Source of the DNA: Candidatus Latescibacterota bacterium
GTDB taxonomy: Bacteria > JAAXHH01 > JABIQT01
Assembly (NCBI GenBank): GCA_018667995.1
Contig: JABIQT010000583.1
Location: 1-9,530, forward strand
DNA length: 9,530 nt
Direction of reading: 5' to 3'
Shown: piece by piece, positions 766 through 8,887 of the stretch
Layout: every line of letters begins with the position of its first letter
Numbering within the stretch: position 1 is the first letter of the stretch
Notes under the pieces: generated by a model
Databases searched by the model: none
What the model saw: only the letters and a program-made list of their open reading frames with translations
What the model was told of the DNA's origin: nothing
Made by a program: the position numbers and the translations under genes

Positions 766-2517
766 TTACCCTGCATCCTCATATCCACATCCGCGGACGA
801 TGATGATTGAGATATTATCCTCACCGCCGTTGGCGTTGGCCAACTCAACGAGACGGTCGCATGCCGCCTGCGAAAAATCCGTCTCCACCAGAGTCGATTG
901 AAGCTCTGGGTCGTGCACCATTTCCCATAGGCCATCCGAGCAGAGAATCAAACGATCACCAGATAAGAGCGGTTGAAAATAGGTGTCGACCTGAAAGTCC
1001 TCTGTGCTGCCGAGGGCACGGTAGACATAGTTCCTCTGAGGATGCGTGTAAACGTCTTCCGGTTCTATCATGCCAATGGCGACAAGTCTGGCAACGACCG
1101 AATGATCCGTAGTTATCGGCGACAGCACACCGTTACGAAACAGGTAAGTTCTACTATCGCCGACATTGGCAATGTATGCAAAGGATCCGACAACGAGCGC
1201 AGCGGTGAGAGTGGTACCCATATTGCTCGCATTGTTATCAGGTCCCGCGTCGACGACCGCCTGATTTGCCGCTCGCACCGCATCGCCTATGAGGCCACCG
1301 TATGTTGGTTCATCAGGATTCCCGCTAATGCCACTGATATCCGATTGTATTAACCTTTCGGAAATGTACCGGGCCATGGTGCCTGCGGCGACACGACTGG
1401 CTATTTCCCCACTGTCATGCCCACCCACGCCATCCGCCACAACATAGAGCCCTGCGTTTTCTCGCAAGGAATCACGCACAACCTCGAATTCCATCAAGGC
1501 AATACTGTCTTCATTCAAAGGCCTAACGCGTCCCGCATGCGAGCGCGCCCCGGCATCGAATGACAGCGCCTCGCGTTGGGCAAGCTCAATATCCGAGACC
1601 TGTACAGGTTCTTCCCCGTGGAGGCGTTCGGACAGATCCTCAGAGGCAGACAGAGCGTCGTCGTATCCTCCCTGGGCCATGTCGGATAGAATCTCTAGCA
1701 GCACCGGGTCCATAGTCTGGTTTTCATCTTGCTCATTTGGTAATGAATCTTGTGATAACAAATCCGTAATCAGCAGGGACAGGCTCCGGAGATCTGCCTG
1801 ACGGGCAAGATCAAAGGCATCGTCTTCCATTTCTGTCTGCGATGGAAACACAGAAAACGGGCCCCAATTCAAGAGCTTTATCTCATCGCCGTCCGATACT
1901 GCAAGGTCAGCTCGCCCCAACGGAATTCCTGCAAACCCGCTTTCATGAAGAACCTGCATCCCCTCGGCCAACTTGCTACCCCAGGCCAACACCACCTCAG
2001 ATTTATGGTCCCCTGGCATGTCAGCCAGGATCCGTCCGCCGAACCATTCCTGAATCATGTATCGCTGACCTTCGCATACAAACCAATCTGTGGGCGACAG
2101 CCACACATCGTGACCGAGGTTCGCCTGAACAAAGCTATCGACACCAGCGGGTCCCTGCTCCGTAGCCCACCGAGTCAACCGATACCAGCCAGGACCTAGC
2201 TCAGCTCCGCATTCATCGCAGAATTCATCATCCTGATCAAGGACATAGAGCTCCCGACAGCCGGCACACCACCGCAGATGGCCCTTCTCCGTAGCTCTGT
2301 AGACTATTCTATCTTCGAGTACAGATGCGGCGGCGTCTATAAGATACCTGTCGGCGATGATGGCGCCAACGTCCGAGGTTGCAGCGTGCTCAGTCTCTGG
2401 CTCAGCGGGAGTCGTTTCATTCGACGACCCAGTCTGTTCATCTACGGTCCCGGACTCCTCGACCTCATTGGAGCCGGTATTATCTTCAGACAAATTCACG
2501 TCTTCTTCGTTGCGCAT
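766..2517 (-). CDS. Pseudokinase/zinc-ribbon/PP2C-type protein phosphatase fusion
   Basis: A 583-residue protein in three parts. Residues 1-48 are acidic and low complexity, probably disordered. Residues about 55-300 resemble a protein kinase fold that has lost catalysis: a RYLI..A start as in kinase N-lobes, a hinge-like YMIQEWFGGRILADM (153-167), VLHESGF (189-195), then GRADLAV where HRDLKPxN belongs and LLNWG (215-219) where LIDFG belongs. A zinc ribbon C84-x2-C87-x12-C100-x2-C103 sits where the N-lobe lysine strand should be. Residues about 320-575 are a PP2C metal-dependent phosphatase with all metal-binding motifs: RPLNED (332-337), ADGVGGH (361-367), NVGDSR (451-456), CSDGLW (526-531) and GGEDN (564-568). 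It should dephosphorylate Ser/Thr in the cytoplasm, since no signal or membrane segment is seen. The kinase reading of the middle part is inference; the PP2C call is firm. ATG 2517 is preceded by TGGAG about ten bases upstream. It is first in an operon with the kinase. Confidence 0.93.
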   Translation of the reverse strand: MRNEEDVNLSEDNTGSNEVEESGTVDEQTGSSNETTPAEPETEHAATSDVGAIIADRYLIDAAASVLEDRIVYRATEKGHLRWCAGCRELYVLDQDDEFCDECGAELGPGWYRLTRWATEQGPAGVDSFVQANLGHDVWLSPTDWFVCEGQRYMIQEWFGGRILADMPGDHKSEVVLAWGSKLAEGMQVLHESGFAGIPLGRADLAVSDGDEIKLLNWGPFSVFPSQTEMEDDAFDLARQADLRSLSLLITDLLSQDSLPNEQDENQTMDPVLLEILSDMAQGGYDDALSASEDLSERLHGEEPVQVSDIELAQREALSFDAGARSHAGRVRPLNEDSIALMEFEVVRDSLRENAGLYVVADGVGGHDSGEIASRVAAGTMARYISERLIQSDISGISGNPDEPTYGGLIGDAVRAANQAVVDAGPDNNASNMGTTLTAALVVGSFAYIANVGDSRTYLFRNGVLSPITTDHSVVARLVAIGMIEPEDVYTHPQRNYVYRALGSTEDFQVDTYFQPLLSGDRLILCSDGLWEMVHDPELQSTLVETDFSQAACDRLVELANANGGEDNISIIIVRGCGYEDAG

Positions 2518-2792: not shown

Positions 2793-3467
2793 TTACACTT
2801 CCTGTGGAACGTCATCAGGGCGTCCTACCGGTAGAATGAACGCAAGCACGAGGTATACCAGAATTCCCGGACCGAAACCTGACAACATGGTGCCCAAAGC
2901 CCAACCCAGCCGAACGAGTGTTGGATCGATGCTGAAGCTATCGGCGAGTCCCCCACATACACCGAATATCTTCTTATCGGCTTCGGACCTGTACAACCTG
3001 CGCTGGCCTGAGAGTTCTTTCAACTTCTGTACCACGTCGGGTCTGTATTTAAACATAAAGAAAACACCAATAGCCACGAGAATTAGGGGCATCCCGATGA
3101 ATGGCACGTTCCAGTGATGGAAGGGATGAATATCGGAATACGTCAGGACAGCCAATGCCAAGAGAATCATAACGGCGCCCCAGACCATTCCATTGCTCTG
3201 TACATCCTTTTCGAGACCTGACTCATCTTCGGAGAGGCCCTGCGTATCCATGAGTGAGACTTCATCGGGGTTTCGTGGAACTACGAACATACTCACGGCG
3301 TAAGTGAGCGCGCCCACTGCCAATCCCACGGGCATCGATACCAAGGCGATGACGACCCACGCAATTCTGATTACTGTAGGGTCTACGCCGAAATAATCAC
3401 CGAGGCCGCCGCATACCCCACCGACCCATTTATCACTAACAGACCTGTATAGTTTCTTGTCAGTCAT
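2793..3467 (-). CDS. Membrane protein with two PspC domains
   Basis: A 224-residue inner-membrane protein made of two PspC domains, residues about 4-67 and 157-216. Each shows the family pattern LYRS....GVCGGL.D.F.(I/V)DPT.(I/V)R followed by a hydrophobic segment (about 34-63 and 184-212). Between them lie a charged linker (66-92) and two more membrane segments (94-110 and 121-139). PspC proteins sense or relay cell-envelope stress, and in Enterobacteria PspC works with PspB and PspA; here no PspA or PspB is visible. Single-domain PspC proteins are shorter, so this is a duplicated form. The ATG at 3467 has a strong AGGAGG seven bases upstream. It lies 50 bases after the DUF6249-like gene in the same direction and is read divergently from the ECF sigma/anti-sigma pair, which suggests a shared envelope-stress role (inference). 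Confidence 0.88.
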   Translation of the reverse strand: MTDKKLYRSVSDKWVGGVCGGLGDYFGVDPTVIRIAWVVIALVSMPVGLAVGALTYAVSMFVVPRNPDEVSLMDTQGLSEDESGLEKDVQSNGMVWGAVMILLALAVLTYSDIHPFHHWNVPFIGMPLILVAIGVFFMFKYRPDVVQKLKELSGQRRLYRSEADKKIFGVCGGLADSFSIDPTLVRLGWALGTMLSGFGPGILVYLVLAFILPVGRPDDVPQEV

Positions 3468-4233: not shown

Positions 4234-4791
4234 ATGGATCTGAGTGAGGGTAGCCGACCAGCGTTCGCATCGCTTATCGAACGCCACAAAGGCTCTATTT
4301 TCAGCATGGCCCTCCGGGTTGTAGGAAATCGCGAAGATGCAGAAGAAGCTGCACAAGACGCATTTGTCCGGGCCTTCCGGGCATTAAGTAAATTTCGCCG
4401 CGACGCGAAATTTGGAACCTGGCTGTACCGAATCGCAATGAATGTATGCTTGACCAAGGCAAGGCAATCTCGCCTGGATGTCACATCAATCGATGCCTCC
4501 GCTGAGGACGATGTTGACAGCGCGCCGTTGCAGATCCCGGATCACGGAGATAACCCTGATCGACTTGTTGAGCGAAGCGAGTTTAAGGATCGTGTCCAGA
4601 ATATGATCGCGTCACTACCGCCCAAGTACAGCGCGGTTCTGACCATGTACCACATGCAAGATCTTTCATACGAAGAAATGAGTGAGACCCTGGACCTTCC
4701 CATCGGGACCGTAAAAGCCCATTTGTTCAGAGCCCGCGGGGCACTTAAAAAACTGGCAATCACGGCTTTCGAGCCGCAGGAATTGCGATAA
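4234..4791 (+). CDS. ECF-subfamily RNA polymerase sigma factor
   Basis: A 185-residue sigma70-family factor with only regions 2 and 4, as in ECF (group 4) sigmas. Region 2 (about 9-76) includes DAEEAAQDAFVRAFRAL and FRRDAKFGTWLYRIAMN, the -10 recognition and core-binding part. A variable acidic linker (about 80-115) follows, then region 4 (about 118-172) with LPPKY and the helix-turn-helix LSYEEMSETLDLPIGTVKAH (144-163) that reads the -35. It would direct RNA polymerase to stress promoters when released by the anti-sigma factor encoded next. ATG 4234 is the only usable start: an in-frame TGA lies about 40 bases upstream and no other ATG, GTG or TTG intervenes. The putative ribosome site AGAGG is only three bases from the ATG, so translation may be weak. 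Its stop overlaps the ribosome site of the anti-sigma gene. Confidence 0.96.
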   Translation: MDLSEGSRPAFASLIERHKGSIFSMALRVVGNREDAEEAAQDAFVRAFRALSKFRRDAKFGTWLYRIAMNVCLTKARQSRLDVTSIDASAEDDVDSAPLQIPDHGDNPDRLVERSEFKDRVQNMIASLPPKYSAVLTMYHMQDLSYEEMSETLDLPIGTVKAHLFRARGALKKLAITAFEPQELR

Positions 4792-4801
4792 GGATGCTAC
4801 C

Positions 4802-5368
4802 ATGGAATGCCATACCTCATTGACCCTGATACAGGAATCTTTCGAACGAATTCTATCGTCGATTGAACAAAGGGAACTGGATGACCACCTGCTAACGTGC
4901 AAGAATTGTCGGGCTGAAGCCGTTCTTCTCACGGGCGTGGTCAACGCGGTTAAGGAAACTCCTCTGGAGATGCCTTCTCACGATTTCACATTGCACGTAA
5001 TGGATCGGCTCCCGGTACCCGTGAGCGGATTCCTGGGCATTCCCGGCGACGTCATGCGAGTAGCCGCGGCAGCGGCCATTGTTGTAGCCACGTTTCTCAC
5101 CTGGCTATACCAGGACTCCCTGATTCAGATATCAAAGCGGATTCCTGAAACCGCCTCAATCGGGACGGATTCGGTCTCTCCCTATTTCGCACAGATTTTC
5201 GGCAGCATCTATGGTTCGTGGCAATACATGGCCACATTTCTGCCGCCTATTGATATGGACGTGGCAATACCTGTCCTGTCCGTCCTGATCGCCATTGGCG
5301 TAGCCCAGGTTGTTCTCCGAATGGCCCATGGCTTCGAACCAGTCGAACTTGACGAAGTCACCAGCTGA
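4802..5368 (+). CDS. Zinc-finger anti-sigma factor, two transmembrane helices
   Basis: A 188-residue protein with an N-terminal anti-sigma zinc finger (zf-HC2/ZAS type): C3, then DDHLLTCKNC carrying H29-x3-C33-x2-C36. This domain holds the ECF sigma in the cytoplasm. Membrane helices follow at about 84-103 (Ala/Val-rich) and 154-173, with a periplasmic loop of about 50 residues between them and a short acidic cytoplasmic tail. The two-helix topology returns the tail to the cytoplasm, unlike the common single-pass RseA type. The signal that inactivates it is unknown. AAGGA, overlapping the sigma stop codon, lies seven bases before ATG 4802, so translation is coupled to the sigma gene, which supports a cognate pair. 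It is the last gene before a strong hairpin. Confidence 0.93.
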   Translation: MECHTSLTLIQESFERILSSIEQRELDDHLLTCKNCRAEAVLLTGVVNAVKETPLEMPSHDFTLHVMDRLPVPVSGFLGIPGDVMRVAAAAAIVVATFLTWLYQDSLIQISKRIPETASIGTDSVSPYFAQIFGSIYGSWQYMATFLPPIDMDVAIPVLSVLIAIGVAQVVLRMAHGFEPVELDEVTS

Positions 5369-7365: not shown

Positions 7366-7373
7366 AAGGGGAG
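7366..7373 (+). promoter_or_regulatory. Ribosome binding site deciding the first lepB start
   Basis: AAGGGGAG lies eight bases before ATG 7382. An in-frame GTG at 7373 overlaps this site and would have no spacing, so ATG 7382 is the more likely start. Confidence 0.7.
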
Positions 7374-7381
7374 TGGCCACA

Positions 7382-8092
7382 ATGGCCAGACAGAAATCTC
7401 TAATTCGAGAATACGCTGAGACCATCGTCTTCGCTGTGCTGTTATTTGTCGTCATAAAGACGGATGTAGTACAGGCCTTCCGAATCCCATCGGGCTCCAT
7501 GGAAGACACCCTTCTGGTTGGCGACTTTCTCCTTGTCAACAAGTTCATCTACGGCCCGACTATTCCAGGAACCGACTACAAGCTGCCAGGGATCCGTGAT
7601 CCGGAACCAGGGGATGTGATTGTTTTTCCATATCCTTCCGATCCATCCAAGGATTTCATTAAAAGATGTGTGGCAACTGAGGGACAGGTTGTCGAGGTCC
7701 GGGATAAGGTCGTTTATGTCGACGACGAACCGATTGATGACCCGATTTATAGCAAACATACAGAATCCAATATTATCTCCGGCAAACGTGGCCCCAGGGA
7801 CAACTGGGGGCCGAAGGTTATCGGTAAAGATGAACTTTTTGTCATGGGGGACAATCGTGACAACAGTTCGGACAGCCGATTCTGGGGATTCGTTGACAAA
7901 GAGACGGTCAGAGGCCAGGCATTCATAGTCTACTGGTCGTGGGAACAGGAGATTGAAGACCCTCGGCTGCCCGCGTGGTCATGGGAGCAACCAGCCCAGA
8001 GCTTCGCCTCTCTGACGCACGTGGTGGGCTACAATATACTCCATTCGCCATGGCGTGTTCGCTGGAGTCGTATTGGCCGACTGATCGAATGA
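7382..8092 (+). CDS. lepB: Type I signal peptidase (first of a tandem pair)
   Basis: A 236-residue leader peptidase that removes signal peptides from exported proteins on the outer face of the inner membrane. It has one N-terminal membrane anchor (about 11-30), then the nucleophile motif RIPSGSMEDTL with Ser39, the general-base motif DFIKRCVA with Lys94, and the GDNRDNSSDSR motif (156-166). SGSMEDTL replaces the commoner SGSMxPTL; the same form occurs in the next gene. The catalytic dyad is complete, so it should be active. The C-terminal part (about 185-236) holds a Trp-rich stretch and ends in SPWRVRWSRIGRLIE, which its neighbour also shares. An in-frame GTG at 7373 is possible but overlaps the ribosome site. 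It lies 32 bases after lepA and 21 bases before the second lepB. Confidence 0.97.
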   Translation: MARQKSLIREYAETIVFAVLLFVVIKTDVVQAFRIPSGSMEDTLLVGDFLLVNKFIYGPTIPGTDYKLPGIRDPEPGDVIVFPYPSDPSKDFIKRCVATEGQVVEVRDKVVYVDDEPIDDPIYSKHTESNIISGKRGPRDNWGPKVIGKDELFVMGDNRDNSSDSRFWGFVDKETVRGQAFIVYWSWEQEIEDPRLPAWSWEQPAQSFASLTHVVGYNILHSPWRVRWSRIGRLIE

Positions 8093-8113: not shown

Positions 8114-8887
8114 ATGACTAAAGTCTCCACCCGGCGCCGCTCAGGCAAAAAAGGGAAACGGGGGCGCGACGGTAAACTGCGAAGTTCCGGACGATCGGTT
8201 ACCCGTGAGTACACCGAGGCGCTCATTGTCGCGGGAATCACGGCCCTTCTGATCAAAACGTTCGTCATACAAGCCTTCAGAATCCCCTCTGGTTCCATGG
8301 AGGACACACTGCTCGTCGGTGACTTCCTACTAGTCAATAAGTTCCTCTACGGAGCGTCTGTACCCTTCACCGACACCACCCTACCTGCCATCAGGGATCC
8401 CCAATCCGGCGATGTCATCGTTTTTCAATATCCGGAAGATCCCACTAAAGATTATATCAAACGCTGTGTCGCCGTGGCGGGGGAGACGGTCGAAATACGC
8501 GACAAAGTGGTATTTGTGAACGGCGAAATAAGGCCCATGCCACCTGAAGGCAAGCACATCTCCTCCGGCGTATACACGCGAGCTCAGAGCCCCAGGGACA
8601 ACTGGGGGCCAGAAACCGTACCGCCCGGACACCTCTTCATGATGGGTGACAACCGGGACAACAGTACAGACAGTCGTTTCTGGGGTATGCTCGATACCAG
8701 ACTCATTCGAGGCCAGGCCTTTATCTTGTATATGTCCTGGGAATTCCAGTTGGGTGATCCGGAGCTTACCTGGACCCTTGATCAGCCTGTGGGAAGCGCG
8801 TTCTCCTTGCTGTATATCGTCGCCTATGATATCGTCCACGCTCCCTGGCGTGTGAGATGGACCCGCATTGGTCATCTGATTGAGTGA
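8114..8887 (+). CDS. lepB: Type I signal peptidase (second of a tandem pair)
   Basis: A 257-residue paralogue of the preceding gene. It carries an extra, strongly basic N-terminus (about 1-32, rich in Arg, Lys, Gly and Ser) ahead of the membrane anchor (about 34-52). Catalytic motifs are intact: RIPSGSMEDTL with Ser61, DYIKRCVA with Lys116, and MGDNRDNSTDSR (177-188). The two proteins share the core PSGSMEDTLLVGDFLLVNKF and the ending APWRVRWTRIGHLIE with few changes. They diverge in the substrate-cleft region after the anchor (VPFTDTTLP against IPGTDYKLP) and in the insert after the lysine motif, so specificity may differ. GGAG lies six bases before ATG 8114. The pair probably arose by tandem duplication; whether one serves special substrates is not visible. 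Confidence 0.97.
   Translation: MTKVSTRRRSGKKGKRGRDGKLRSSGRSVTREYTEALIVAGITALLIKTFVIQAFRIPSGSMEDTLLVGDFLLVNKFLYGASVPFTDTTLPAIRDPQSGDVIVFQYPEDPTKDYIKRCVAVAGETVEIRDKVVFVNGEIRPMPPEGKHISSGVYTRAQSPRDNWGPETVPPGHLFMMGDNRDNSTDSRFWGMLDTRLIRGQAFILYMSWEFQLGDPELTWTLDQPVGSAFSLLYIVAYDIVHAPWRVRWTRIGHLIE

Follow-up and report, generated by a model that had tools for sequence, protein, structure and literature searches.

The protein encoded near one end of the 9,530-nucleotide stretch of DNA analyzed here (the window) joins a PP2C-type phosphatase domain to an N-terminal protein kinase homologue that carries a four-cysteine ribbon and whose catalytic motifs are degraded. An initial annotation had described a PP2C phosphatase fused to a catalytically dead, ribbon-bearing domain derived from a kinase, and this description stood. 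Its placement of the cysteines within the kinase fold did not, and a kinase neighbor is not constant.

Coordinates of the phosphatase gene, its parts and the adjoining genes in the window
Feature	Position	Strand	Basis or remark
Zinc-ribbon/pseudokinase/PP2C CDS	766..2517	-	583 aa; stop codon 766-768
Pseudokinase domain, residues ~49-302	1612..2373	-	hhalign, PDB profile search, AF2 model with Foldseek and VIA-align
N-lobe beta1-beta2, GAIIADRY...VYRAT, residues 51-76	2290..2367	-	
Four-Cys ribbon C84-x2-C87-x12-C100-x2-C103, residues 84-104, in beta2-beta3 loop	2206..2268	-	Relatives and models
beta3 strand YRLTRW, residues 112-117	2167..2184	-	Thr115 near ATP-lysine position; exact register inferred
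beta4-beta5 and hinge DWFVCEGQRYMIQEW, residues 144-158	2044..2088	-	hhalign, PDB profile search
Degenerate catalytic loop VLHESGFAGIPLGRADLAV, residues 189-207	1897..1953	-	HRD Asp replaced by Pro199, Asn by Asp204
Degenerate DFG segment IKLLNWG, residues 213-219	1861..1881	-	Asp replaced by Asn217
PP2C domain, residues 324-575	793..1548	-	Motifs NED, DGxGGH, GDSR, SDG, GGEDN
Adjacent Ser/Thr kinase, N-terminal part, runs into contig end	2..685	-	Pfam Pkinase E 7e-37
Double PspC-domain protein, upstream of phosphatase gene	2793..3467	-	

Kinase homology, degraded motifs and domain layout

By Pfam and NCBIfam alone, no pseudokinase was detected in the window protein, while one relative (L013) gave weak Pfam kinase matches and another (L002) had a weak match in the kinase portion of a lanthionine synthetase model. 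A profile was started from the window protein and two relatives from its order (L002 and L003), with no kinase included. It found matches in 100 of 384 genomes at E<=0.01, chiefly over the region from beta4 to DFG, and the ORFs read out from the matched genomes were ordinary kinases in most cases. With L013 added, the top PDB matches were PknB-type kinases, the best at E 1.2e-6. Aligned with 20 kinases by hhalign, the domain profile reached a probability of 99.4% (E 1.7e-21) over 231 columns, and 97.2% (E 3e-11) with 24 divergent relatives in the profile; reversed controls gave E values of 0.17 to 0.68, and VWA and PP2C controls E values of 0.06 to 0.42. The kinase-likeness of residues ~49 to 302 exceeds chance by far.

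Structural comparison pointed the same way. An AF2 model from the three sequences was of low confidence (pLDDT 56, pTM 0.47), yet it matched kinases over both lobes: all Foldseek matches listed were kinases, and VIA-align superposed the model on PknB with a Z score of 13.6 over 196 residues (rmsd 4.1). A second AF2 model, with L040 as the query, was poor (pTM 0.40, TM 0.2 to 0.3), and its matches were again kinases. By profile and by the low-confidence model, residues ~49 to 302 are a protein kinase homologue with similarity across both lobes.

The residues singled out in the initial annotation (C84, C87, C100 and C103, GRADLAV at 201 to 207 in place of HRDLKPxN, and NWG at 217 to 219 in place of DFG) were all found in the ORF at these places, and both motifs proved degraded as described. 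In addition, beta1-beta2 of the window protein is without a Gly-rich loop. We compared 24 aligned full-length members, several of them close relatives and the Chloroflexota sequences less sure in their beta3 register. Lysine occupied the ATP-lysine position in none of the 24 (Thr115 in the window protein), the HRD Asp was kept in one (L066; Pro199 in the window protein) and the DFG Asp in 12 (Asn217 in the window protein). No homologue combined all three residues; L066 has both aspartates and no lysine. The four ribbon cysteines were invariant in all 24 members, as was His191. With Thr115, Pro199 and Asn217, the window domain lacks the catalytic residues of an active Hanks-type kinase, and kinase homology together with degraded motifs makes it a pseudokinase as judged from sequence.

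The cysteines had been assigned to the strand that normally bears the ATP-binding lysine. In both AF2 models the order is beta1, beta2, ribbon, a further strand, a short helix and beta4-beta5. Because the strand YRLTRW directly follows the ribbon in the models, the insertion point of the ribbon is the beta2-beta3 loop, and the earlier placement was one element off. A substitution of the cysteines for beta3 was rejected on two grounds, the strand after the ribbon in both models and the family pattern. Pfam zinc-ribbon scores of the window protein were below cut-off; a relative (L108) scored above the cut-off for the four-Cys model NF045510. The cysteine pattern suggests that the ribbon binds Zn.

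The kinase homologue is preceded by a Glu/Thr/Ser-rich N terminus (residues 1 to 47) and followed, as annotated, by an intact PP2C domain (residues ~324 to 575; Pfam E 3.8e-14). This domain is shared with Stp1/IreP-type phosphatases (NCBIfam E 4.3e-66), with a score of 222.8 for NF033484 against a curated cut-off of 230; the relative L002 scored 234.1. The Stp1 model spans the PP2C domain only, whereas the window protein also has the N-terminal pseudokinase. PADLOC matched the phosphatase only over its PP2C part; among phage records none covered 80% of the query, and the 5 matches listed of 25 were to the PP2C part only. From its intact motifs, the window protein is probably an active PP2C-type Ser/Thr phosphatase.

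Distribution and forms of the family

Relatives were found in two groups, the window's order and Chloroflexota. In the latter, 50 of 251 genomes (a sample of the phylum of G346, taken as Chloroflexota from gene content) gave matches at E<=1e-9, some of them plain kinases. In a wider sample searched with an N-lobe profile, all convincing members came from these two groups; of 13 weak matches elsewhere, the five inspected were all unrelated ribbon proteins. The family covers at least two bacterial phyla.

Two forms were distinguished by the distance from ribbon to PP2C domain, which was 211 to 239 residues in full forms and 75 to 139 residues in N-lobe-only forms. In the latter, the ribboned N-lobe is followed directly by PP2C, the C-lobe having been lost at ~15 loci; for seven such sequences, alignment to the full forms reached 99% over beta1-beta5. 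Moreover, in one genome of the window's order (G014) the phosphatase is without the pseudokinase domain and yet adjoins the orthologous kinase (L004; G014:C78:14815-16245). There are in-frame stops in the repeats of that kinase, and an anti-sigma-like gene and LepA also adjoin the PP2C gene. Where the C-lobe is present, its pairwise dN/dS ratios of 0.015 to 0.30 (C-lobe boundary set by position, some pairs near synonymous-site saturation) were equal to or somewhat above the PP2C values, and the domain is therefore maintained.

Gene neighborhood and related systems

As initially annotated, the gene next to the phosphatase gene, on its downstream side, codes for a kinase. The kinase appears intact, with the VKE lysine, the FRD Asp, Asn and DFG present, and its GTG start is in line with the orthologues. 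Like those in L040 and L041, it has FRDLNPRN instead of HRDLKPxN; these orthologues end in PPC-like C-terminal repeats. Contig C36 of this genome carries what is likely the rest of the truncated gene, with a VWA gene after it. In the window's order, orthologous kinases (45 to 79% identity over matched pieces) were present only in the four genomes holding a window-type PP2C. A double PspC-domain gene lies upstream of the phosphatase gene in L002/L040 and L003/L041 as well. Elsewhere in the window lie an ECF-like sigma factor gene and a probable anti-sigma gene (4234-5368, +) followed by a LepA-like gene, and tandem, mutually similar signal peptidase I-like paralogues (7373-8092 and 8114-8887, +).

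Neighbors within three ORFs were scored at 40 loci, which are related and not independent, lie in part on short contigs, were picked by the four-Cys pattern and include two cyanobacterial PRK14559 loci. A kinase was found at 27/40, a VWA gene at 34/40 and a second PP2C gene at 24/40. The kinase neighbor is thus frequent, not constant: it was present in 14 of 25 full forms and absent from 11, and present in 13 of 15 N-lobe-only forms and absent from two. Adjacent kinase and C-lobe are therefore not obligatory for each other. One typical gene order is PP2C, ribbon-pseudokinase-PP2C, kinase, VWA and ribbon-FHA protein, and in the Chloroflexota module the second PP2C, the kinase and the FHA proteins carry ribbons too. 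These arrangements point to a recurrent, little-described signaling module in which a phosphatase, a Hanks-type kinase and a VWA protein are combined. In one Chloroflexota family, a divergent ribbon-FHA-FHA-ABC transporter fusion lies beside the module (L096 10628-13216, +, and equivalents).

The module resembles the TerY-P triad (PMC11090510), in which the same three partner types (VWA, PP2C and a Ser/Thr kinase with a zinc ribbon) are adjacent and ribbons occur among the parts; VWA, PP2C and kinase genes lie together in L040, L041 and the window's own genome. The two systems differ in detail. The TerY-P kinase has a C-terminal zinc ribbon, whereas the kinases of L040 and L041 have no CxxC ribbon and PPC-like C termini, and the kinase of the Chloroflexota family with L096 bears its ribbon N-terminally. 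Unlike that of TerY-P, the window-family phosphatase has a pseudokinase with a ribbon of its own. The VWA proteins of the module gave only sub-cut-off NCBIfam matches, to other VWA models.

A further parallel, in domain layout, is the cyanobacterial PRK14559 (NF011149), which like the window protein combines N-terminal zinc ribbons, a middle region of ~200 aa and a C-terminal PP2C domain, although its ribbons precede the middle region and that of the window protein lies inside the pseudokinase domain. The window protein scored 122 bits against this model (cut-off 374), over the PP2C part only. Compared with kinases, the PRK14559 middle region (30 sequences) gave a match of weak significance, E 7.4e-5 at 62% probability (reversed control, E 0.17), with hinge and catalytic loop in collinear alignment, which is no more than suggestive of a relationship to kinases.

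In having a kinase fold with degraded motifs, the window protein is like the bacterial pseudokinase families ActPs, GLW, CP1, DYD and DLHK (PMC12599244); PP2C, zinc and Chloroflexota do not appear in the text of that 2025 review. PP2C and kinase fusions in Pseudomonas were reported in a 2005 survey. A 2025 PP2C survey records PP2Cs with ribbons from Pseudomonadota, Cyanobacteriota and Chloroflexota; fusions of PP2C and kinase are treated there as a separate matter, and the word pseudokinase does not appear. In the searched passages of these two 2025 surveys, on pseudokinases and on PP2C, a ribbon-pseudokinase-PP2C fusion is not described.

Possible roles of the kinase-derived domain

The most likely reading, to which we give about even chances, is that the kinase-derived domain serves an active PP2C phosphatase as an adaptor or regulatory domain without catalysis of its own. 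The ribboned N-lobe would offer an adaptor or regulatory surface for the PP2C domain and would bring it to, or hold it in, a complex with other module proteins, candidate partners being the kinase, the VWA protein or some substrate that kinase and phosphatase have in common. Kinase and opposing phosphatase could thereby act at one place, and the C-lobe would be a lineage-dependent extra. Retention of N-lobe and ribbon where the C-lobe was lost counts for this reading; the 13 of 40 loci without a kinase within three ORFs, some of them on short contigs, count against it. Since the G014 phosphatase adjoins the kinase even without a pseudokinase, the domain is not needed for pairing everywhere.

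Docking of the pseudokinase to the neighboring kinase, as proposed in the initial annotation, is plausible, and with 13 of the ~15 loci that lack the C-lobe lying beside a kinase, such docking cannot require the C-lobe and hence the complete pseudokinase. A further reading, which we put forward tentatively, is that the ribboned, free-standing kinase N-lobe is a distinct kinase-derived docking module, which shed its C-lobe in several lineages and aims PP2C at the module kinase or shared substrates; PRK14559 might then be a still more decayed version.

PknB-type kinases dimerize through their N-lobes. In a narrower version of the adaptor reading, which we regard as rather doubtful, the ribboned N-lobe would copy a kinase N-lobe and pair with the neighboring kinase, so that the phosphatase turns the kinase off. 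The intact kinase beside 13/15 N-lobe-only loci, the co-occurrence of kinase orthologue and window-type PP2C in the window's order and the kinase (encoded by an FHA-kinase gene) adjoining PRK14559 at 21/30 loci are all consistent with such mimicry. However, the 11/25 full-length forms without an adjacent kinase, including the Chloroflexota L042 group, mostly have VWA genes instead.

It is unlikely that the ribbon acts as a metal or redox sensor, binding Zn or losing it on oxidation and so altering PP2C activity via the pseudokinase. Against this reading, zinc ribbons with a structural role are widespread, and sensing is not their usual function. The invariance of the four cysteines and the further ribbons elsewhere in the Chloroflexota module (second PP2C, kinase, FHA proteins) would fit such a sensor, and for TerY-P triads a role as switches that sense metal has been proposed (PMC11090510).

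It is very unlikely that the domain is evolutionary debris, a decaying linker without function. The loss of the C-lobe at ~15 loci, the absence of the whole domain in G014 and an identity of 35%, versus 77 to 79% for the neighboring kinase, would agree with decay, but the invariant ribbon cysteines and His191, the low C-lobe dN/dS and conservation across two phyla argue against it. Least probable is a nucleotide-binding or unconventional kinase that still binds ATP or transfers phosphate through a rewired site: the DFG Asp in 12/24 relatives, the HRD Asp in L066 and the description of bacterial pseudokinases that are degraded in part of their motifs and may retain ATP binding (PMC12599244) stand against the missing Gly-rich loop, a lysine in no member, loss of the HRD Asp in 23/24 and, in the window protein, loss of the DFG Asp as well.

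Bacterial pseudokinases are little studied, and here a phosphatase carries what appears to be a dead version of the fold of its opponent. With the same partner genes beside full, N-lobe-only and domain-less variants, the family provides a natural series for testing what keeps kinase and phosphatase together as a pair.
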